Shown here piece after piece: positions 48,267-57,232 of a stretch of 60,314 nucleotides of DNA. The notes beneath the pieces were generated by a model. The model was not told the DNA's origin and did no database searches. It saw nothing but the letters and a program-made list of their open reading frames with translations. The stretch comes from Draconibacterium sp. Its GTDB lineage: Bacteria > Bacteroidota > Bacteroidia > Bacteroidales > Prolixibacteraceae. Numbering within the stretch: the stretch's first letter is position 1; every line of letters starts with the position of its first letter. Position numbers and translations under genes: made by a program. The stretch spans positions 1-60,314 of the forward strand of contig WOYV01000018.1 of NCBI GenBank assembly GCA_011620585.1, read 5' to 3'.

Positions 48267-48476
48267 AATTTTTAACTAAAATTTCTCAGAGTATTAATTT
48301 TCAGGATTTCATATTCTAAACGCTCAGCGCCATCAGCATGTAATTGTTTCTAAACTTGAACATAAGTTTGAAAAAAGTAATAACTGAACAAGTATCTTGC
48401 TCATATTCGGTACTTTAGGTTCATTCTTGAATACTAAAAAACACTCTCTGTCCGTATATAGAAATAATTAAATATT

Positions 48477-48513: not shown

Positions 48514-49383
48514 ATGGGATACGTAACGCATAAGATTTTCCTGTATGCATTAATAATAATTACAGTTGCCGTATTTCTGTTTTTGTCAGTTTACGGAGCT
48601 GATTATTATACCACCAGCATTAACGAAAGGCATTTTCACGGGCAAAACGAATTGCTAAAACCAACCGGGCTGATTGGTCATGGAATCGGAATCCTTGGGT
48701 CGGCAATGATGCTGGTTGGGGTTTTTGTGTATATGGCACGCAAACGGATTCGACTTTTTTCGAGAATTGGCAGATTAAAACACTGGCTTGAATTTCATAT
48801 TTTTCTTTGTACGCTGGGCCCGATACTGGTTTTATTCCACACCTCGTTTAAGTTTGGCGGGTTAGTGTCAGTTAGTTTCTGGAGTATGATTGCAGTGGTG
48901 ATGAGCGGTGTAGTAGGCCGGTTTATTTACCTCCAGATACCACGGACCATTGAGGGGCGCGAAATGAGTTTGAACGATCTGAATAGTATGGAAACCGACT
49001 TGTTTGCGAAATTGAATGACCAGTTTGAGATTCACCCTGAAATTCTTTTACGCGCCAACGAAATGTTGTTACAGGACCGGGGAGGAAGGGGTAATAATTA
49101 CCTGGTCCGTATTTACAGGCGGTTTGCATTTGAACGTCAACTTAAAAATCAATTCCGAAAAGAATTGAAGGAACAAAATATACGTGGGAAAAACCTGCGG
49201 AACGCAGTGAAAATATTTCAATCAAAAATAATATTGAACCGAAGGATTGCCTGGTTGTCTTCGATGCAGGATTTTCTGCGCTACTGGCACGTGGCACATC
49301 TTCCATTTGCGCTGATCATGCTCGTGATAATGGTGGTGCATATTGTGGTGGCTGTACTTTTTGGATATAAATGGATTTTTTAG
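48514..49383 (+). CDS. Cytochrome b-like integral membrane protein (first gene of the multiheme operon)
   Basis: A protein of 289 residues with five predicted helices at about 8-28, 56-74, 92-110, 118-140 and 262-286. Histidines sit in or at helix ends: H56, H90, H95, H109, H259, H262, H276. The pair H95/H109 and the group H259, H262, H276 (YWHVAHLPFALIMLVIMVVH) are the kind of ligand positions used for b hemes. A charged, mostly helical loop of about 110 residues lies between helices 4 and 5. No named family is recognised with certainty. In this operon it probably carries electrons between the flavoprotein encoded next (3 bases on) and periplasmic cytochromes, possibly with quinone exchange (inference). 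Confidence 0.8.
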   Translation: MGYVTHKIFLYALIIITVAVFLFLSVYGADYYTTSINERHFHGQNELLKPTGLIGHGIGILGSAMMLVGVFVYMARKRIRLFSRIGRLKHWLEFHIFLCTLGPILVLFHTSFKFGGLVSVSFWSMIAVVMSGVVGRFIYLQIPRTIEGREMSLNDLNSMETDLFAKLNDQFEIHPEILLRANEMLLQDRGGRGNNYLVRIYRRFAFERQLKNQFRKELKEQNIRGKNLRNAVKIFQSKIILNRRIAWLSSMQDFLRYWHVAHLPFALIMLVIMVVHIVVAVLFGYKWIF

Positions 49384-49386
49384 CCA

Positions 49387-50724
49387 ATGGAAAGTTTCTG
49401 GGAAAAAATATTGATTTACGGCGGGGTCACCTTCTTCCTGGTCGGTGTAATCTACATCTATATTCGCAAGCTCAGACGAGAATCGAAAATAGTTGAAGAG
49501 AAGATAAAAATTGCCAAGGAAGATGGTCTGCACGAGCCTGTTTCGCTGCATCCGGTGGTAGATGTTAATTCGTGTATACAAAGCGGTGCTTGTATTCGGG
49601 CGTGTCCCGAGCACGACATTCTCGGAATAAGAAACGGTAAAGCCACCGTTATAAATGCCAGCCGTTGCGTGGGGCACGGCGCCTGTTTCCATGCCTGTCC
49701 AACCCAGGCGATTACACTCTATATCGGAACTGAAAAACGTGGTGTCGATCTGCCTCACGTAAACCAGTATTTCGAATCGAATGTGAAGGGAATTTCGATC
49801 GCCGGCGAAATGGGAGGAATGGGTTTGATAAAAAATGCGGTAGAACAAGGCAGGCAAGCGGTCAATAATCTTGTACGCGGGATCAATACTAAAAATACAA
49901 GTGATTATGATCTTATTGTAGTGGGAGCGGGACCTGCAGGAATTTCGGCCACGCTTGAAGCAAAACGTTTAAAACTTCGTACATTAACTCTCGAGCAAGA
50001 TACGCTGGGGGGCACAGTCTTTACTTTTCCACGGGCCAAAATAGTAATGACCTCTCCAATGGATATTCCACTTCACGGTAAAGTGAAATTGTATGAAACC
50101 AGTAAAACCGAACTTCTCGAACTTTGGGAAACGGTACTCACAAAAAATGAAATTGCGATTCTTGAAAATCATAAAGTTGAGCGAATAACTAAATACGAAA
50201 ATGGGTTTGGGCTCGAATGTAGCAATGGGAAAAAATTTACTACGCAACGAATTTTGCTGGCAATTGGCAGACGAGGGACACCACGTAAATTAAACGTTCC
50301 CGGCGAAGACCTTCACAAGGTGTATTACCGTTTATTAGAGCCCGAACTGATATCGGATAAAGATATTCTGGTGGTAGGTGGAGGCGATTCCGCCATCGAA
50401 TCGGTCTTGTTGCTCGCTCCTCAAAACAGGGTAAGCCTTTCGTACCGGAAAGAAACCTTTTCGCGTCTGAAATCAAAAAATAAACAAAAGCTGGATGAAG
50501 CGATTGCTCAACAAACTATTAACGTAATCTTGAATTCATCGGTTCAATCAATTGAAGAGAATACAGTAACCATTAAAATTGACGGGAAGGAAGAACTCAA
50601 ACTTAACAACGACCTGGTGTATATTTTTGCAGGGGGGGAACTGCCAACCGATTTCCTGAAAAATGCAGGAATAGAGATCACTACAAAATTTGGCGAAGCC
50701 ATCTTAAAACACGAGAAAAGATAA
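49387..50724 (+). CDS. Membrane-anchored Fe-S/FAD/NAD(P) oxidoreductase with permuted domain order
   Basis: A protein of 445 residues. One N-terminal helix (about 10-27) is followed by a cytoplasm-facing basic stretch. Two Fe-S motifs lack the second Cys: C63-x5-C69-x3-C73-P (CIQSGACIRACP, Ser in place) and C94-x5-C100-x3-C104-P (CVGHGACFHACP, His in place). Next comes GISIAGEMGGMGLIKNAVEQ (136-155), the FAD-binding element normally at the C-terminus of thioredoxin-reductase-like enzymes. Only then follow the FAD loop GAGPAG (180-185) and the NAD(P) loop GGGDSA at about 340. It likely takes electrons from or gives them to NAD(P)H or ferredoxin. Close partners are the cytochrome b-like gene before and the multiheme gene six bases after. 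Confidence 0.88.
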   Translation: MESFWEKILIYGGVTFFLVGVIYIYIRKLRRESKIVEEKIKIAKEDGLHEPVSLHPVVDVNSCIQSGACIRACPEHDILGIRNGKATVINASRCVGHGACFHACPTQAITLYIGTEKRGVDLPHVNQYFESNVKGISIAGEMGGMGLIKNAVEQGRQAVNNLVRGINTKNTSDYDLIVVGAGPAGISATLEAKRLKLRTLTLEQDTLGGTVFTFPRAKIVMTSPMDIPLHGKVKLYETSKTELLELWETVLTKNEIAILENHKVERITKYENGFGLECSNGKKFTTQRILLAIGRRGTPRKLNVPGEDLHKVYYRLLEPELISDKDILVVGGGDSAIESVLLLAPQNRVSLSYRKETFSRLKSKNKQKLDEAIAQQTINVILNSSVQSIEENTVTIKIDGKEELKLNNDLVYIFAGGELPTDFLKNAGIEITTKFGEAILKHEKR

Positions 50725-50730
50725 AACCTG

Positions 50731-52326
50731 ATGAGATACTGGTTAAAATATGTGCTGTTATTGTTTGCCTTAATTTGGGGAAGCAAAAGCCTGCATGCCC
50801 AAATTTCACCCGGCGATCTTACCAGGGCACATGCCCATCTCGATGGCCTTACAAAATGTACCCAATGCCATGTTTTAGGTGAAAAGGAAACCACTTCGAA
50901 ATGTTTGGAATGCCATAAAGAGATCAAATCGCTCATCGATCAGAAAAAAGGTTATCACGCTTCGGTTGAGGTGAAAGGAAAAAAATGTGCCGAATGCCAT
51001 GGCGAACATTTTGGCCGCGACTTTAAGATTATTCGGTTCGATGAGGATAAATTTGATCACGAACTGGCTGGTTTTGAGCTCGTAGGAAAACATGCAACAA
51101 TTAATTGTGCCGAATGTCATAAATCGGAATTGATAACAACAAAAATGTCGCAAAGAAAGGAAACAGGCACTTTCCTGGGAATGGGAACCGAATGTCTGGC
51201 ATGCCACGAAGATGTTCATCAAAATACACTTTCAAAAAACTGTACATCGTGTCACAACCAGGATGCGTTTAAACCCGCAACAGTTTTTGATCATGCGAAA
51301 ACTGATTTTGTGCTAGTTGGAAAACACAAGGAAGTAGATTGTGCCAAATGTCACTTGACAACGGTACAGAACGGGAAAAAATTTCAACAATTTGCAGGTG
51401 TTGCTTTTTCAACTTGTACCAGTTGCCACGAGGATGTGCATCAGAATAAATTTGGAAACGACTGTATGAAATGCCACAACGAGTTCTCGTTTAAAACCGC
51501 GAATACCAGCAAGAACTTCAACCATAATAAAACGGATTATCCATTACTGGGAAAACATCTTTCGGTTGATTGCAAAAAATGTCATACCAGTGGCAACTTT
51601 ACAAAAACATTAAAGTTTAGTCGGTGCACCGATTGTCACAAGGATTATCACGAAGGACAGTTTCGAAAAAATAAAGCGGCACCCGACTGTGCTGAATGTC
51701 ATTCGGTTAATGGCTTTACTACTTCCTTTTTTTCGATTGAAAAACACAATAAAACACAATTTGCACTGGAAGGGGCCCACATGGCGACGCCTTGTCTGGC
51801 TTGTCATAAAACCAACGAAAAATGGAATTTCAGGATAGCAGAACACCGTTGTGTGGATTGCCATGAAAATATTCATTTAAACCTTATGGACAAGAAGTAC
51901 ATTCCTGAATCGGATTGTAAAGCTTGCCATTCGGTTAATATTTGGAAAGAAATTTCATTCGATCATAATCTAACTAAATTTCAACTTTTGGGAAAACACG
52001 CGCAGGCAACTTGTCGCGATTGTCATTTCAAGGAAGTTGATGGCGCAGTTAAACAGCAATTTGCCAATCTTGCATCGAGCTGCGAAAACTGTCACGAAGA
52101 TATCCATTTCAAGCAATTTGAAGTACTTGGGAAAAATGATTGCGGACGCTGCCATACTTTTAACAACTGGTCGCCCGAAAAATTCAATCATAATAATGCG
52201 AGGTTCAAACTCGATGGGAAACACGATGGTTTGCAGTGTATTGCCTGCCATAAACCTACCGATCATTTGATCCGAAACTATGTTGTTTACAAATTTGAGG
52301 ATATATCATGCGCAAGTTGTCATTAA
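50731..52326 (+). CDS. 20-heme periplasmic cytochrome c
   Basis: A protein of 531 residues with a signal peptide (about 1-24, GSKSLHA-Q). Twenty CxxCH heme-c motifs are counted, and none is degenerate. From about residue 100 the chain is built of modules carrying three hemes: CxxCH-ED-V/I-H-x3-F, then DCxxCH, then F-D/N-H-x3-x-F-x-L-x-GKH-x4-CxxCH. The extra conserved His residues can serve as distal ligands, giving bis-His hemes. The last heme motif CASCH is the very C-terminus, and its codons overlap the start of the next gene by 19 bases. No lipobox or sorting domain is seen, so it is probably soluble in the periplasm and bridges inner and outer membrane. Confidence 0.94.
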   Translation: MRYWLKYVLLLFALIWGSKSLHAQISPGDLTRAHAHLDGLTKCTQCHVLGEKETTSKCLECHKEIKSLIDQKKGYHASVEVKGKKCAECHGEHFGRDFKIIRFDEDKFDHELAGFELVGKHATINCAECHKSELITTKMSQRKETGTFLGMGTECLACHEDVHQNTLSKNCTSCHNQDAFKPATVFDHAKTDFVLVGKHKEVDCAKCHLTTVQNGKKFQQFAGVAFSTCTSCHEDVHQNKFGNDCMKCHNEFSFKTANTSKNFNHNKTDYPLLGKHLSVDCKKCHTSGNFTKTLKFSRCTDCHKDYHEGQFRKNKAAPDCAECHSVNGFTTSFFSIEKHNKTQFALEGAHMATPCLACHKTNEKWNFRIAEHRCVDCHENIHLNLMDKKYIPESDCKACHSVNIWKEISFDHNLTKFQLLGKHAQATCRDCHFKEVDGAVKQQFANLASSCENCHEDIHFKQFEVLGKNDCGRCHTFNNWSPEKFNHNNARFKLDGKHDGLQCIACHKPTDHLIRNYVVYKFEDISCASCH

Positions 52327-54863
52327 TTTTAGGTATGATGTTTTGGGCTTTTTTGCTCAAAGCACAGGATAGTCCGCACGGCGATAAATTGTCGTTCGAC
52401 TGTTTGGATTGTCACACTACCCAGGGATGGACCTTTTCGGCTGCAACTGCAAAGTTCAGCCACGATAAAACCAATTTCAAGCTCGAAGGGCAGCATGTTT
52501 TTACCGATTGTAAAGCGTGCCACACCACTTTGGTATTTTCAGAAGCGAAGTCTAATTGCATGGATTGCCACACCGACATGCACAACAGCACCGTAGGAAT
52601 GGATTGCGCCCGTTGCCACGACACCAAATCGTGGTTGGTTTCGAATATTTCCGAAATTCACCAATCGAGCCGGTTCCCGCTTCTCGGAGCTCATAATACC
52701 GCTGACTGCGCCGCTTGTCATACTTCGGCATCAAGGTTGGAGTTTCAACCTTTGGGGGTTGAATGTATCGATTGTCATAGGAGCGATTACCTTGCTACTA
52801 CCAATCCAAACCATCAACAGGCCGGTCTTTCTACCGATTGTATCGAATGCCACAAAATCGACGCTTTTACCTGGGGTTCTCAGGGATTTAACCACGATTT
52901 CTTCCCACTCGTAAAAGGCCACGCTATTAACGATTGTGCCAGCTGTCATACTTCAGGGGTTTTTGAACCTGTTTCGACAGATTGTTACAGCTGTCATCAA
53001 AGCGATTTTTTATCAGCTTCCAATCCATCGCATAATAACTCAGGATTTACAACAACTTGTAACGATTGTCATACCATCGACCCTGGCTGGAAACCGGCAA
53101 AGTTTGATATACACGATCAGTTTTATTTTCCAATTTATTCGGGCGAACACAGGGGCGAATGGGAGAATTGTGCCGAATGTCATACGCAACCTGAATCATA
53201 TGCAGTGTATAGTTGTACTACCTGTCACGAGCACAATCAAAGCAAGATGGACGATGAACATAGTGGGGTAAATGGGTATCATTACGATGGTGTTGCATGT
53301 TATGTTTGCCACCCTGTTGGACGGGCCGATGGCGCGTTTAATCATGATGCTACTGGCTTTCCTTTAAAAGGGGCCCACACGCAAACCGAGTGCTTGAGTT
53401 GCCATACAAACGGATATGCCGGGACCCCAAATACCTGTAGCTCGTGTCATACTCCCAGTTATAACCAGGCAGTAAATCCAAATCACCTGGCTGCCGGAAT
53501 TTCTACTGAGTGTCAAATCTGTCATACCGAAGCTGGGTGGGTGCCTTCGCAATTTAATCACACAGCTACTACTGGATTTGAACTTGCCGGAGGACATTCG
53601 GGAAAACAGTGTGCCGAATGCCATGTTGGAACTACGACTTCAGCGAGCCCCGAATGTATCAGTTGCCACCAGGCAAACTACAACAGTGCGCCGGACCACG
53701 TGGCACAGAATTTCCCGACCGAGTGTTTGCAGTGTCACACGGTAAATAGCTGGGATGCTGCAAATTTCGATCACAACGCCACTAATTTCCCGTTAACGGG
53801 AGCACATATTTCTACCGAATGTACTGCCTGCCACACCAGTGGTTATGCAGGTACGCCAACAAATTGCGACGCCTGTCATACCAATAATTACAATGCCGCC
53901 CAGAATCCGGTTCATACGACAGCTGGATTACCAAAAGATTGCGAGACTTGTCATACCACGACAGCCTGGGTTCCATCGCCGTTTGATCATCTGGTAACAA
54001 CCGGTTTTGGATTAACCGGAGGACATTCGGGAAAACAGTGTGCCGAATGCCATGTTGGAACTACGACTTCAGCGAGCCCCGAATGTATCAGTTGCCACCA
54101 GGCAAACTACAACAGTGCGCCGGACCACGTGGCACAGAATTTCCCGACCGAGTGTTTGCAGTGTCACACGGTAAATAGCTGGGATGCTGCAAATTTCGAT
54201 CACAACGCCACTAATTTCCCGTTAACGGGAGCACATATTTCTACCGAATGTACTGCCTGCCACACCAGTGGTTATGCAGGTACATCGATGGTTTGTAGTT
54301 CATGTCACACGAATGATTACAATGCAACTGTAAATCCTTCACACGCTTCATTAGGTTTGTCGAAAAGTTGCGATTTGTGTCATACAACTACTCCGGGATG
54401 GGAACCTGCCCAGTTTCCAAATCATAACGACTATTATGCGTTGAACGGAGCACATGCTTCTGTCTCGAATAATTGTTATCTCTGTCACAACGGAAATTAT
54501 ACTTCAACGCCAAACAGTTGTTATGGTTGTCATGCGGCTGATTATAACAACACACAAGATCCGGCCCATGCAGCAGCAGGATTTCCAACCGATTGCGACG
54601 CCTGTCATTCTGAAAATGCCTGGGAACCTGCCACCTTCGATCACGATGGACAATATTTCCCGATTTACAGCGGAGAGCATCGCGGAGAATGGAACTCTTG
54701 TTCCGACTGTCATACAAATAACACGAACTATACCCTGTTCTCGTGCATAACCTGCCATGAACACAGTCAGTCGAACACCGATGGAGAACACACCGGTGTT
54801 CGAGATTATGTATACTCGGCAACCAGTTGTTATACCTGTCATCCTGATGGACGAGAAGATTAG
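52308..54863 (+). CDS. 34-heme exported cytochrome c
   Basis: A protein of 851 residues with a signal peptide (about 1-19, FWAFLLKA-Q). Thirty-four CxxCH motifs are counted, about one per 25 residues. Repeated three-heme modules of about 70 residues follow the pattern CxxCHxxxYN...H...F/A-P-T-x-C-xx-CH-T...W-x-PAxFDHxATxFPLxGAH-xx-T-x-C-xx-CH. Two longer segments containing FPIYSGEHRGEW (about 275 and 785) repeat as well. Its Asn/Thr/Gly-rich surface, unlike the Lys-rich 20-heme protein, would suit a location outside the cell or within the outer-membrane barrel (inference). No T9SS sorting domain or lipobox is seen. Part of the gene is a perfect 268-base repeat. Confidence 0.93.
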   Translation: MRKLSLILGMMFWAFLLKAQDSPHGDKLSFDCLDCHTTQGWTFSAATAKFSHDKTNFKLEGQHVFTDCKACHTTLVFSEAKSNCMDCHTDMHNSTVGMDCARCHDTKSWLVSNISEIHQSSRFPLLGAHNTADCAACHTSASRLEFQPLGVECIDCHRSDYLATTNPNHQQAGLSTDCIECHKIDAFTWGSQGFNHDFFPLVKGHAINDCASCHTSGVFEPVSTDCYSCHQSDFLSASNPSHNNSGFTTTCNDCHTIDPGWKPAKFDIHDQFYFPIYSGEHRGEWENCAECHTQPESYAVYSCTTCHEHNQSKMDDEHSGVNGYHYDGVACYVCHPVGRADGAFNHDATGFPLKGAHTQTECLSCHTNGYAGTPNTCSSCHTPSYNQAVNPNHLAAGISTECQICHTEAGWVPSQFNHTATTGFELAGGHSGKQCAECHVGTTTSASPECISCHQANYNSAPDHVAQNFPTECLQCHTVNSWDAANFDHNATNFPLTGAHISTECTACHTSGYAGTPTNCDACHTNNYNAAQNPVHTTAGLPKDCETCHTTTAWVPSPFDHLVTTGFGLTGGHSGKQCAECHVGTTTSASPECISCHQANYNSAPDHVAQNFPTECLQCHTVNSWDAANFDHNATNFPLTGAHISTECTACHTSGYAGTSMVCSSCHTNDYNATVNPSHASLGLSKSCDLCHTTTPGWEPAQFPNHNDYYALNGAHASVSNNCYLCHNGNYTSTPNSCYGCHAADYNNTQDPAHAAAGFPTDCDACHSENAWEPATFDHDGQYFPIYSGEHRGEWNSCSDCHTNNTNYTLFSCITCHEHSQSNTDGEHTGVRDYVYSATSCYTCHPDGRED
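53587..53854. repeat. 268-base perfect direct repeat, copy 1, inside the 34-heme gene
   Basis: Identical by eye to 54016-54283, an offset of 429 bases (143 codons, in frame). It encodes four CxxCH motifs. The 161 bases after it, and those before, match their 429-offset partners only as diverged homologues. Confidence 0.95.
54016..54283. repeat. 268-base perfect direct repeat, copy 2, inside the 34-heme gene
   Basis: Second copy of the repeat at 53587-53854. Flanks are diverged, so identity is restricted to this core. Confidence 0.95.
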
Positions 54864-54870
54864 CTGAGTT

Positions 54871-56478
54871 ATGAAACAACAAAGATATTTATTATTACTT
54901 TCTTTATTGTGTTGGGGTTCTTACCGGATTCATGCACAGCAAGTTACTGATGTGCTGGAAGGTCGGGTGTCGTACGTCACAGGTGAGAATATTTACGTGA
55001 AGTTTATTTCTACTGAAGGAATCGAGAATGGCGACACTTTGTTTGTTTCATCCACCGGGAAACTTCTTCCTGCCTTACTTGTTCAACACCACTCATCTAT
55101 CTCGTGTTTGTGTATTCCTGTTGGTAGTGGAAAAGTCAAAGTCGAAGATGTTGTAATCCATAAAATTAAAAACAAAGTAATCCCCGTAACTACTCCCGTT
55201 GGTGAAGATGTTCCGGATAAGGATCTAAATCAGCAAATTCTTACTGCGCGAAAGCAGGTTGAACCGAAGAAGGACAAGCAGGATTTTTCGGGCAGACTAT
55301 CCGTCTCATCTTATTCCAATTTCTCGGGCCAGGGAAATGACTCGCACCGTTTCCGATATACTTTTTCATCCTTATTGTCGAATATCGGCGGTTCGAAATT
55401 ATCACTCGAAACCTACGTGTCATTTACACATAAATTGAACGAATGGGATGTAATTAAAGAAAATCTGAACAATGGTTTGAAAGTTTACGACCTGTCGCTG
55501 AAATATGAATTGAACGAAAAGAGCGCTGTTTGGCTGGGACGGACCATCAATCCGAACGTGGCGAATGTTGGGGCCATCGATGGAATCCAGTTTGAATACG
55601 GGTTTAAGAATATCTTTGCCGGAGTAGTGGCAGGATCGCGTCCCGATTACCAGGATTACGGTTTTAATTTCGATTTATTTGAATACGGGGCGTATTTCGG
55701 TCACGGTAAGAAGTTGAAAAACGGCTTTGTGAAAACCAGCCTTGCTTTTTTCGAACAGCGGAATAATGGAAACATCGATCGTCGCTTTGTTTACTTTCAA
55801 CACACCAACTCGCTTGTAAAAAATCTAACACTGTTTTCTTCAGTCGAGCTCGATCTGTATAAGCTGGAGAACGGACTGCCGGTAAATACGCTCAGCCTCA
55901 CCGGGCTGTTCCTTTCGCTGAATTACCGGGCAACACGATCGCTGTCTTTGTCGGGATCGTACGACAACCGGAAAAATGTAATTTACTACGAAACCTTTCG
56001 GAATTTTGCGGATGAAATTTTGCAACAAGCCAGCCGGCAAGGAATTCGTTTGCGTGTGAATTACCGGCCAGTAAATTATTGGTTGATTGGTGTTAACGGA
56101 GGAACGCGATTTATGAAAAACGATCCGAAGCATACAAACACCGCCAACGCTTTTGTTACCTGGTCGAAAGTTCCGGGAATAAATGCTTCGTTAAATGTGT
56201 CGGCTAACCTGATGCAAACTGCATACCTCGATGGACAGATTTACGGGGCAAGGCTTTCAAAAGATTTTCTGAAAGGAAAAATTTATACGACGCTAAATTA
56301 TCGTTGGGTTGATTTCAGGTATGTTAACATGATTACAGAATTGCAACAGCACATCGGGGAGATAGATTTTTCATATCAGCTCAACAAAAGTTTTTATTTG
56401 TCTGTTAATTATGAAGCAACATTTCAGCAAAAAGAAATATTTAACCGATTATATTTGAACCTGAAATATAGATTTTAA
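54871..56478 (+). CDS. Outer-membrane beta-barrel, putative porin of the multiheme conduit
   Basis: A protein of 535 residues with a signal peptide (about 1-22, GSYRIHA-Q). Residues about 25-100 form a small beta domain (VLEGRVSYVTGENIYVKF, with a CLC motif). A charged linker follows (about 115-140). From about 140 to the end alternating amphipathic strands with turns give roughly 18-24 strands. The chain ends NRLYLNLKYRF with the terminal Phe of barrel proteins. No family is recognised. It sits seven bases after the 34-heme gene and 16 bases before the lipoprotein, in the place expected for the porin of a porin-cytochrome complex. Confidence 0.85.
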   Translation: MKQQRYLLLLSLLCWGSYRIHAQQVTDVLEGRVSYVTGENIYVKFISTEGIENGDTLFVSSTGKLLPALLVQHHSSISCLCIPVGSGKVKVEDVVIHKIKNKVIPVTTPVGEDVPDKDLNQQILTARKQVEPKKDKQDFSGRLSVSSYSNFSGQGNDSHRFRYTFSSLLSNIGGSKLSLETYVSFTHKLNEWDVIKENLNNGLKVYDLSLKYELNEKSAVWLGRTINPNVANVGAIDGIQFEYGFKNIFAGVVAGSRPDYQDYGFNFDLFEYGAYFGHGKKLKNGFVKTSLAFFEQRNNGNIDRRFVYFQHTNSLVKNLTLFSSVELDLYKLENGLPVNTLSLTGLFLSLNYRATRSLSLSGSYDNRKNVIYYETFRNFADEILQQASRQGIRLRVNYRPVNYWLIGVNGGTRFMKNDPKHTNTANAFVTWSKVPGINASLNVSANLMQTAYLDGQIYGARLSKDFLKGKIYTTLNYRWVDFRYVNMITELQQHIGEIDFSYQLNKSFYLSVNYEATFQQKEIFNRLYLNLKYRF

Positions 56479-56494
56479 AAAGGAACTTAAATAA

Positions 56495-57232
56495 ATGACT
56501 ATGTACAAAATGAGAGCTTTATTATTTGCGATTTTATTGACCGTATTTTCTTCGTGTGTCCAGAATAAGAATCCGAAGCAGGCACAAGGTGTGGTGCAAA
56601 CCAACCAAAAGGTTTTTGAGGTTACCGATGTAATCCAGGGAAGCAATTATACTTACTTGCAGGTAAAAGAAAATATGATGGATCGCTGGGTAGCAGTTAG
56701 CCGACAAGAGGTGAACAAAGGGGATGTGTATTACTACGACAGCGCCTTGCAGATGACCGACTTTCACAGCAAGGAAGTTGATCGAACTTTCGACGTAATT
56801 TATTTTGTAAACCAGATAAGTAAAACTCCGATTGCTGCTGCAGCTTCAGCCATGGGTGCAGGCGCCATGCCCGCACATTCAGGAAAAGTAGCTGCTGCCG
56901 ATCAGGAAGTGGAGATGACAAAACCCGAAGGTGAACTGAGCATTGCCGATGTTTACGCCAACAAAACAGAATACGCCGGCAAAGAATTCGAAATTCGTGG
57001 TGTAGTGGTAAAAGTAAACGACCAGGTGATGGGCAAAAACTGGGTACACATTCAGGATGGTAGTGCCGCAGGTGGAAACTTCGATTTGACATTAACTACA
57101 CAAGCGGAAGTAAAAGTTGGCGACGAGGTTACCTTTAAAGGCAAACTTACGCTGAATAAGGATTTTGGGGCCGGTTACTACTACGATGTTATTGTGGAAG
57201 ATGCTGAATTGGTGACTAAGAAAGTTTCGTAA
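56495..57232 (+). CDS. Lipoprotein with NrfJ-like and OB-fold domains
   Basis: A protein of 245 residues. Lipobox LTVFSSC puts the lipidated Cys at about 21. Residues about 38-112 match the NrfJ-like pattern: GSNYTYLQVKENMMDRWVAVSRQEV and the hallmark MTDFHSKEVDRTFDVIYFVNQI. NrfJ genes accompany cytochrome c nitrite reductase operons in epsilon-proteobacteria, with unknown role. An Ala-rich linker follows, then an OB-fold-like domain (about 145-240, YAGKEFEIRGVVVKVNDQV and NWVHIQDG). No Cys remains in the mature part besides the lipidation site. Last gene of the operon; it may help assemble or tether the cytochromes (inference). Confidence 0.85.
   Translation: MTMYKMRALLFAILLTVFSSCVQNKNPKQAQGVVQTNQKVFEVTDVIQGSNYTYLQVKENMMDRWVAVSRQEVNKGDVYYYDSALQMTDFHSKEVDRTFDVIYFVNQISKTPIAAAASAMGAGAMPAHSGKVAAADQEVEMTKPEGELSIADVYANKTEYAGKEFEIRGVVVKVNDQVMGKNWVHIQDGSAAGGNFDLTLTTQAEVKVGDEVTFKGKLTLNKDFGAGYYYDVIVEDAELVTKKVS

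Follow-up and report, generated by a model that had tools for sequence, protein, structure and literature searches.

We analyzed a window of 60,314 nt of Draconibacterium sp. contig WOYV01000018.1 (assembly GCA_011620585.1), in which six genes form a putative electron conduit of the cell envelope. The six genes occupy the forward strand between positions 48514 and 57232, with gaps of 3, 6, -19, 7, and 16 nt as given in the first-pass annotation of this DNA, and encode in order an inner-membrane protein (IMP), a flavoprotein, two exported multiheme cytochromes, a beta-barrel, and a putative lipoprotein (Table 1). The two cytochromes carry the 20 and 34 CxxCH motifs that had first been counted in them. 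All Cys residues of both proteins sit within CxxCH, CxxCK is absent from both, and Pfam recognizes cytochrome c7/c3 repeats in each. These runs of motifs are not due to chance, because no other stop-to-stop open reading frame (ORF) of the window holds more than one CxxCH.

Table 1. Features of the six-gene locus in the Draconibacterium sp. window.
Feature	Coordinates	Strand	Description
IMP gene	48514..49383	+	289 aa; predicted di-heme cytochrome b-like
Flavoprotein gene	49387..50724	+	445 aa; membrane-anchored Fe-S/FAD/NAD(P) oxidoreductase by motifs and Pfam
20-heme c-type cytochrome gene	50731..52326	+	531 aa; predicted wire of the periplasm; signal peptide judged by eye
34-heme c-type cytochrome gene	52308..54863	+	851 aa; predicted wire of the barrel/outer side; signal peptide judged by eye
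Beta-barrel gene	54871..56478	+	535 aa; outer-membrane barrel predicted by AlphaFold
Putative OB-like lipoprotein gene	56495..57232	+	245 aa; lipoprotein by eye; accessory
Promoter-element candidate TAAGTTTG	48363..48370	+	fits TAnnTTTG; weak
Near-exact repeat in 34-heme gene, copy 1	53589..53855	+	267 nt
Near-exact repeat in 34-heme gene, copy 2	54018..54284	+	267 nt; offset 429 nt; 99.6% identity

The system is real and widespread. The barrel query matched 25 of 296 genomes sampled across the phylum, the IMP (alignment A6, described below) matched 54 of 120 genomes of the host family and 30 of 247 of the host order, and the flavoprotein (alignment A3) matched 50 of 395 phylum genomes at E <= 1e-60, with the host's own genome included in each count. 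The flavoprotein matches were near full-length in 38 of the 50 genomes (E <= 2.5e-160) and partial in 12, and 11 of these partial matches fall inside frames of ~780-910 residues. A pattern scan of named genomes returned at least 588 matches, at least 565 of which are relatives, and the best 80 were retained as named loci. By title, these 80 belong to the Bacteroidota in the wide sense, apart from two titled only ‘uncultured bacterium’, and include Prolixibacteraceae, Bacteroidales, Saprospiraceae, Cytophagaceae, Ignavibacteria, Melioribacter, and one labelled Chlorobiota; Maribellus, Draconibacterium, and Mariniphaga are among the named genera.

Gene order was compared, over up to 10 kb, in the 50 of the best 80 loci with at least 8.5 kb downstream of the IMP gene. 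The neighborhood search that the first-pass annotation had proposed revealed a unit recurring across this wide group: the flavoprotein lies within 10 kb of the IMP gene in 49/50 loci, at least two multiheme genes in 48/50, the barrel in 46/50, and all three in 45/50. Most homologous loci thus retain the barrel, the gene for which mostly follows immediately after a multiheme gene. The five loci with an incomplete set are L089, L093, L102, L122, and L135. The miss at L093 is an artifact of an overlap filter, the flavoprotein being present there, and no multiheme gene was seen downstream of the IMP at L102 and L135. The OB lipoprotein accompanies the unit in a minority of loci (16/50). Other arrangements occur in the phylum sample, where the loci of families f13, f20, f31, and f39 and one f27 locus have the flavoprotein gene after the barrel, or no IMP gene was detected (L066).

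On plasmid pEMTOL02 of Emticicia oligotrophica, six genes follow the order of the window, downstream of the cytochrome-maturation gene ccsA; the sixth bears the annotation GW dipeptide protein, and the cytochromes hold 23 and 40 CxxCH. When plasmids were searched, at an E limit of 1e-10 for the 20-heme protein and 0.1 for the barrel, Emticicia alone was recovered. In the plasmid copy examined as a locus (L070, 10899-13985), the unit has its own ccsA directly upstream and may be moving as a package.

The many lineages spanned by the host titles (Saprospiraceae, Ignavibacteria, Prolixibacteraceae) might also suit a special-purpose chain, in which electrons would go to a secreted reductase or to a partner cell and not to minerals or humic matter. 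No further gene recurs in the clusters among the types that were labelled, a weak argument given that the remaining neighbors are unannotated, and we regard such a chain as highly unlikely.

 The window IMP contains the motif WX3HX13H twice (W91-H95-H109 and W258-H262-H276) and SGXXG at residues 131-135. Its AlphaFold model (mean pLDDT 77) bears out the five helices initially proposed, at residues 3-27, 53-78, 88-109, 117-141, and part of 226-286. Among 23 sequences mostly found via the barrel (alignment A1), H95, H109, and SGxxG are conserved in 23/23, H262 and H276 in all 22 with a letter at those positions, and W91 in 18/23. In alignment A6, which comprises the window protein and 77 of 80 IMPs (L119, L127, and L145 were omitted for odd starts), the ligand His, W91, and SGxxG are conserved in 78/78, partly by construction, the set having been gathered by patterns covering the stretches around H109 and G135. 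The window IMP has no Pfam match at E <= 0.01, and members of A6 have weak matches to DUF4405 (50/78, best E 2.1e-5) and Ni_hydr_CYTB (12/78, best E 0.0061). Sequence searches of the PDB with the IMP and the barrel yielded nothing under E 0.2, and fold searches with the IMP model, Foldseek included, gave no clear assignment.

Relatives of the IMP were also found outside the Bacteroidota. An IMP match was present in 11 plasmid records, of which five were examined, and on four proteobacterial plasmids (Alteromonas, Methylophaga, Acetobacter, and Qipengyuania) the IMP relative (tblastn E 1e-5 to 1e-3; E 8e-20 to 5e-25 with a profile, for a set of four sequences) adjoins a 7-heme cytochrome and a protein annotated as 2Fe-2S. 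The three of these 2Fe-2S proteins that were scanned combine NAD-binding, FAD-binding, and 2Fe-2S domains. The plasmid clusters resemble the window in joining the same IMP family to an NAD-type flavoprotein and differ from it in the family of the flavoprotein, in having a single 7-heme cytochrome, and in having no annotated barrel nearby (hypothetical proteins were left unchecked). That the IMP family adjoins NAD-type flavoproteins of two Pfam make-ups is our main reason for favoring NAD(P)H over quinol as the donor. On the Alteromonas plasmid pAM1A3 (L071, 11935-18654), the flavoprotein/IMP/7-heme cluster immediately precedes hydrogenase genes.

The flavoprotein encoded next to the window IMP comprises an N-terminal helix, two Fe-S motifs (C63-x2-S66-x2-C69-x3-C73-P and C94-x2-H97-x2-C100-x3-C104-P), the FAD motif GxGPxG, and the NAD(P) motif GGGDSA, and Pfam matches to Pyr_redox_3 (E 9.1e-40) and to the 4Fe-4S domains of Fer4_10 (E 8e-10) support the Fe-S, FAD, and NAD(P) domains first assigned to it. 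We compared 99 flavoproteins, namely the window protein and ORFs of more than 300 bits and more than 380 residues at loci L042-L070 and L075-L154, irrespective of operon membership. GxGPxG is present in 99/99 and GGGDSA in 97/99, and a CxxC of the thioredoxin-reductase type in 0/99. The second Cys of the second Fe-S motif is replaced by His in 99/99; the same position of the first motif is occupied by Ser (53), Thr (35), Cys (10), or Gly (1). The invariant His suggests a cluster with a His ligand. The protein has the FAD/NADPH fold of the YpdA/thioredoxin reductase type by sequence, and its closest solved relative is YpdA/Bdr, from which it differs in its additional Fe-S domain and membrane anchor; its score against the YpdA model (TIGR04018) is 148.3 bits, below the cut-off of 339.9.

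All 20 CxxCH motifs of the 20-heme cytochrome are invariant in 22 aligned 20- or 23-heme proteins (alignment A4, without the short or split homologs of L054 and L059). Beyond these motifs, 19 His residues are conserved in 22/22, and the twentieth (H34) is His in all 18 sequences with a letter there. An extra conserved His for each heme fits bis-His ligation throughout and the lack of an open catalytic heme, as in a conductor and not a catalyst. Identity with a known catalytic reductase was rejected on the extra His residues and on the absence of CxxCK, the catalytic-site motif that the first-pass annotation had proposed to look for. A profile of the 20-heme protein had its best PDB match in 3ov0_A (E 4.4e-11) and also matched 6r2q_A (E 2e-6), which we take to be MtrA; the search tool prints another name.

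Heme numbers were compared among the 68 operons in which exactly two multiheme genes precede the barrel gene (loci L042-L070 and L075-L154, and the window), after dropping those cut by contig ends; L056 and L120 are apparently one genome, which makes the set less than fully independent. In the first cytochrome, 20 hemes occur in 56/68 operons and 23 in 9/68 (65/68 together), and 13, 16, and 18 once each. The second cytochrome ranges from 10 to 67 hemes and has 3n+1 hemes in 60/68 when CxxCH is counted and in 66/68 when CX2-4CH is counted. The two exceptions are L125 (30 hemes) and L099 (23, with 13 in the first), and in L099 the two genes look swapped. A binomial p of 7e-21 calculated from these counts is unusable as a probability because the genes are homologous. 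Nine operons stayed outside this comparison; eight of them have three multiheme ORFs, in part the pieces of split genes, and the ninth has only one. Counting CxxCH only, their second or third ORFs depart from 3n+1 with 9 hemes (L043, L045), 38 (L065), and 23 and 12 (L083, which contains N), as does the lone ORF of L135 (18); the 8 hemes of L132 belong to part of a split gene, and the rest obey the rule.

The heme spacings reveal a three-heme unit of ~15, 25, and 33 residues. The length of the second cytochrome increases by 24.4 residues per heme (r 0.998), and the window protein comprises one heme followed by eleven triheme units of 62-78 aa. The 23-heme form of Emticicia looks like the 20-heme form with one triheme unit added. 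Two Draconibacterium loci (L078 and L079) have 20-heme proteins that are 88% identical and second cytochromes of 52 and 13 hemes. Across 63 loci, the segment of the second protein that carries its first ten hemes is, at the median, 51.5% identical to that of the window. Most units of the window 34-heme gene are strongly divergent, unlike the two near-exact copies of 267 nt (Table 1), which could reflect a recent conversion or duplication, or an effect of assembly. Short-read assembly can collapse or copy near-identical repeats, so single heme counts need care; a shift by whole units would preserve the 3n+1 rule. A tandem-repeat finder run over the cytochrome region reported no repeat. The heme numbers are as expected if the length of one wire is fixed by a gap that it must bridge and that of the other is unconstrained. 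In five operons with three multiheme genes (L043, L045, L065, L108, and L134), a 20- or 23-heme protein and a second cytochrome are followed by one of 9 to 13 hemes beside the barrel, which suggests that the short cytochrome is the partner of the barrel.

The barrel was modeled with AlphaFold from an alignment of 43 sequences (A5, the window protein and 42 of 47 barrels found; mean pLDDT 83.1, pTM 0.64). The model comprises an N-terminal signal helix, a small beta domain (28-98), a low-confidence stretch (101-132), and 22 membrane strands (138-534) as counted from the DSSP list; the last residue is Phe, as first noted of this predicted barrel. The window sequence has no Pfam match at E <= 0.01. 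Structural matches of the model were to barrels in general at ~10% identity, with ushers ranked first by Foldseek and porins and TonB-dependent receptors tied in VIA-align; no single transporter family stands out in either search, whereas a barrel belonging to a solved transporter family would, according to the first-pass annotation, have refuted its reading. MtrB was not among the 50 matches listed for the model by Foldseek and VIA-align, which excludes nothing. For TonB-dependent transporters, characterized by a 22-strand barrel with an N-terminal plug domain, the comparison pointed neither way. The NrfJ-like label first given to the sixth gene found no support: the only match of this gene product at E <= 0.01 is to the Pfam family tRNA_anti-like (OB fold; E 0.0056), with 16.7 bits against a cut-off of 23.5, and it has no NCBIfam match, the presence of an NrfJ model in the libraries being unconfirmed.

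In another reading, the cytochromes would remain in the periplasm as a store of electrons or as a soluble chain of reductases, with no export and with another purpose for the barrel, as would suit the signal peptides of the window cytochromes, which are ordinary by eye and accompanied by no recognized surface-export signal. We find this quite improbable, given that the barrel is kept in 46/50 loci, mostly right after a multiheme gene, that the window pair lacks CxxCK, and that the heme number of the second cytochrome spans 10 to 67, against 20 or 23 for the first in 65/68 operons.

The computation establishes the genes and their synteny, the cofactor motifs, the histidines suited to ligate heme, the rule for heme numbers, and the prediction of a barrel. 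Inferred beyond it are the heme b content, the cell location of the components, an NAD(P)H donor, and an outward direction of flow toward an acceptor that might be a mineral, humic matter, an electrode, or another cell. In our judgment, the six genes probably encode an electron conduit that is fed by NAD(P)H and crosses the entire envelope. Cytoplasmic NAD(P)H would reduce the FAD of the membrane-anchored flavoprotein, whose Fe-S clusters would pass electrons to the cytoplasmic-side heme of the IMP, and electrons would then traverse the inner membrane via its two b hemes. The 20-heme cytochrome, spanning the periplasm, would take electrons from the IMP, and the longer cytochrome would lead them out, its conserved N-terminal part (~13 hemes) residing in or at the 22-strand barrel and its triheme extension reaching outward. 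The route sketched in the first-pass annotation, in which a cytoplasmic flavoprotein feeds the cytochromes and barrel by way of a b-type carrier, is supported here as the best reading of the data, with export to the outer surface its more conjectural part.

The IMP and flavoprotein would work like a split NADPH-oxidase/ferric-reductase module. The likeness, a working analogy only, lies in the idea of electrons passing from NAD(P)H through FAD to two transmembrane hemes; the difference is that separate proteins are involved here and that Fe-S clusters are added. The ferric-reductase domain was not among the 25 Pfam families listed for A6. A broader proposal, which we hold plausible but somewhat doubtful, is that this split NAD(P)H-oxidase-like module, made of a flavoprotein with a His-ligated Fe-S cluster and a di-heme b protein, and the two-part wire to which it connects directly form a phylum-wide outlet that bypasses quinones, the inner wire of 20 (or 23) hemes being a ruler set by the periplasm and the outer one being tuned by gain and loss of triheme units, to the point that close relatives differ from 13 to 52 hemes.

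Most knowledge of extracellular electron transfer comes from Shewanella, Geobacter, and iron oxidizers. With the IMP in 54/120 host-family genomes, a conserved conduit, if true, would make the Bacteroidota a strong candidate for electron export, and direct feeding by NAD(P)H, if true, would follow an energy logic other than that of the quinol-fed Mtr. The near-constant inner and 3n+1 outer heme numbers make wire length a measurable, evolving trait, and named strains of Maribellus, Draconibacterium, and Mariniphaga that carry such loci offer testable hosts.

The occurrence of the operon in Emticicia, which we take to be an aerobe, may point instead to a quinone-linked conduit of the porin-cytochrome complex (PCC) class PCC3, possibly running inward, in which an extracellular donor such as Fe(II) or Mn(II) is oxidized, its electrons come in by way of the barrel and cytochromes, the IMP delivers them to quinones, and the flavoprotein is a side branch. 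The reduction of NAD(P) by donors at the level of Fe(II) is uphill without a pump. No pump was recognized in the clusters, and a side branch is hard to square with a flavoprotein gene in the cluster at 49/50 loci; we therefore consider a quinone-linked conduit unlikely. In its favor, such a flow was proposed for PCC3, with an identical IMP signature, in the accessible part of He et al. (2017; PMC5566968).

That text also bears on the statement in the first-pass annotation that the operon is unlike known conduits, which holds in part. The four-gene core (IMP, periplasmic cytochrome, extracellular cytochrome, and barrel) fits PCC3 as described, and the flavoprotein is additional; the lipoprotein is the minority partner noted above. 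The window IMP agrees exactly with the PCC3 definition of ~300 aa and five transmembrane helices, with WX3HX13H on the third and fifth and SGXXG on the fourth. The PCC3 medians are 21 periplasmic and 34 extracellular hemes, against 20 and 34 in the window, a comparison of numbers only, and 26 residues per heme, against ~25 here. PCC3 porins mostly have very many strands, up to 42 by sequence prediction, as opposed to the 22 modeled here, and PCC3 was reported in Alpha-, Beta-, and Gammaproteobacteria, in contrast to the Bacteroidota here. The accessible PCC3 text names no flavoprotein, the gene that is nearly always in the present clusters (He et al., 2017; PMC5566968). In Gallionellaceae, PCC3 is described with 21, 24, or 27 inner and 10 to 35 outer hemes (accessible part of PMC10734462); the inner numbers rise by threes, in agreement with the triheme unit, and the outer numbers are off 3n+1. 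Relative to the accessible PCC3 description, the new elements are the flavoprotein with His in place of an Fe-S Cys, the inner 20 or 23 hemes beside 3n+1 outer hemes, the 20 extra His, and the predicted 22-strand barrel without likeness to any single transporter family.

Other conduits are less similar. As far as the accessible text goes, PCC4 shares a barrel, further redox proteins (an Fe-S gene in Subgroup II), and an IMP with the WX3HX13H/SGXXG signature common to PCC3 and PCC4, and differs in that it lacks an extracellular cytochrome and has three in the periplasm, with 4, 5, and 10 hemes (He et al., 2017; PMC5566968). MtrCAB, MtoAB, and PioAB also combine a barrel with multiheme cytochromes; the MtrA of the MtrCAB/MtoAB type is a decaheme protein, in contrast to the 20 hemes here, and the score against the DmsE-family model TIGR03508 is 46.2 bits, below the cut-off of 192.2. 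To our knowledge, the Mtr systems lack an IMP of the window kind. OmbB-OmaB-OmcB of Geobacter and relatives, among them Ignavibacterium album, likewise unites a barrel with periplasmic and outer cytochromes, these having 8 and 12 hemes, and the accessible text describes no window-type IMP or flavoprotein (PMC4245776).

No description of the operon in Bacteroidota was found in the accessible parts of the open-access literature searched. Related reports concern unspecified novel PCCs in Bacteroidetes metagenome-assembled genomes (PMC6344600), a seven-gene cluster of six cytochromes and a barrel in one such genome (PMC8258643), and OmbB- and MtrB-like porins in Ignavibacteria (PMC7399161); the window unit is described neither in the accessible text of these nor in that of PMC11475568 (no mention of Bacteroidota), PMC13374861, or PMC5492636 (Melioribacter, no multihemes).

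Contamination of the assembly was rejected as a source of the locus: among ten other window proteins scanned, murD, murG, murC, ftsA, glutamine-tRNA ligase, leuS, and SusC pass NCBIfam cut-offs, and the IMP is present in 14 other genomes of the host genus (and missing from 6 listed). An Rfam scan of the window gave a single match, a tRNA. Upstream of the IMP gene, TAAGTTTG is a weak promoter candidate on the basis of TAnnTTTG, which we take to be the consensus of a Bacteroidota promoter element.

Three minor observations concern related genes. Another host contig (C81, L048) carries a further multiheme cluster, in which a 19-CxxCH protein with a formate-dehydrogenase-gamma-like end accompanies NrfH-like and CcsB-like proteins, all family matches lying under their cut-offs. 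A barrel relative at L063 (9259-10683), with two TAG codons in the matched stretch, lies without an adjoining IMP or 20-heme gene and ~3 kb from a 9-CxxCH ORF. Finally, a protein of ~197 residues, TPR-like by eye and with an N-terminal hydrophobic stretch, is missing from the window and encoded after the IMP in several loci, including L051, L052, L055, L060, L062, L065, L102, L112, and L126, of which L102, L112, and L126 are titled Ignavibacteria or Ignavibacteriales.

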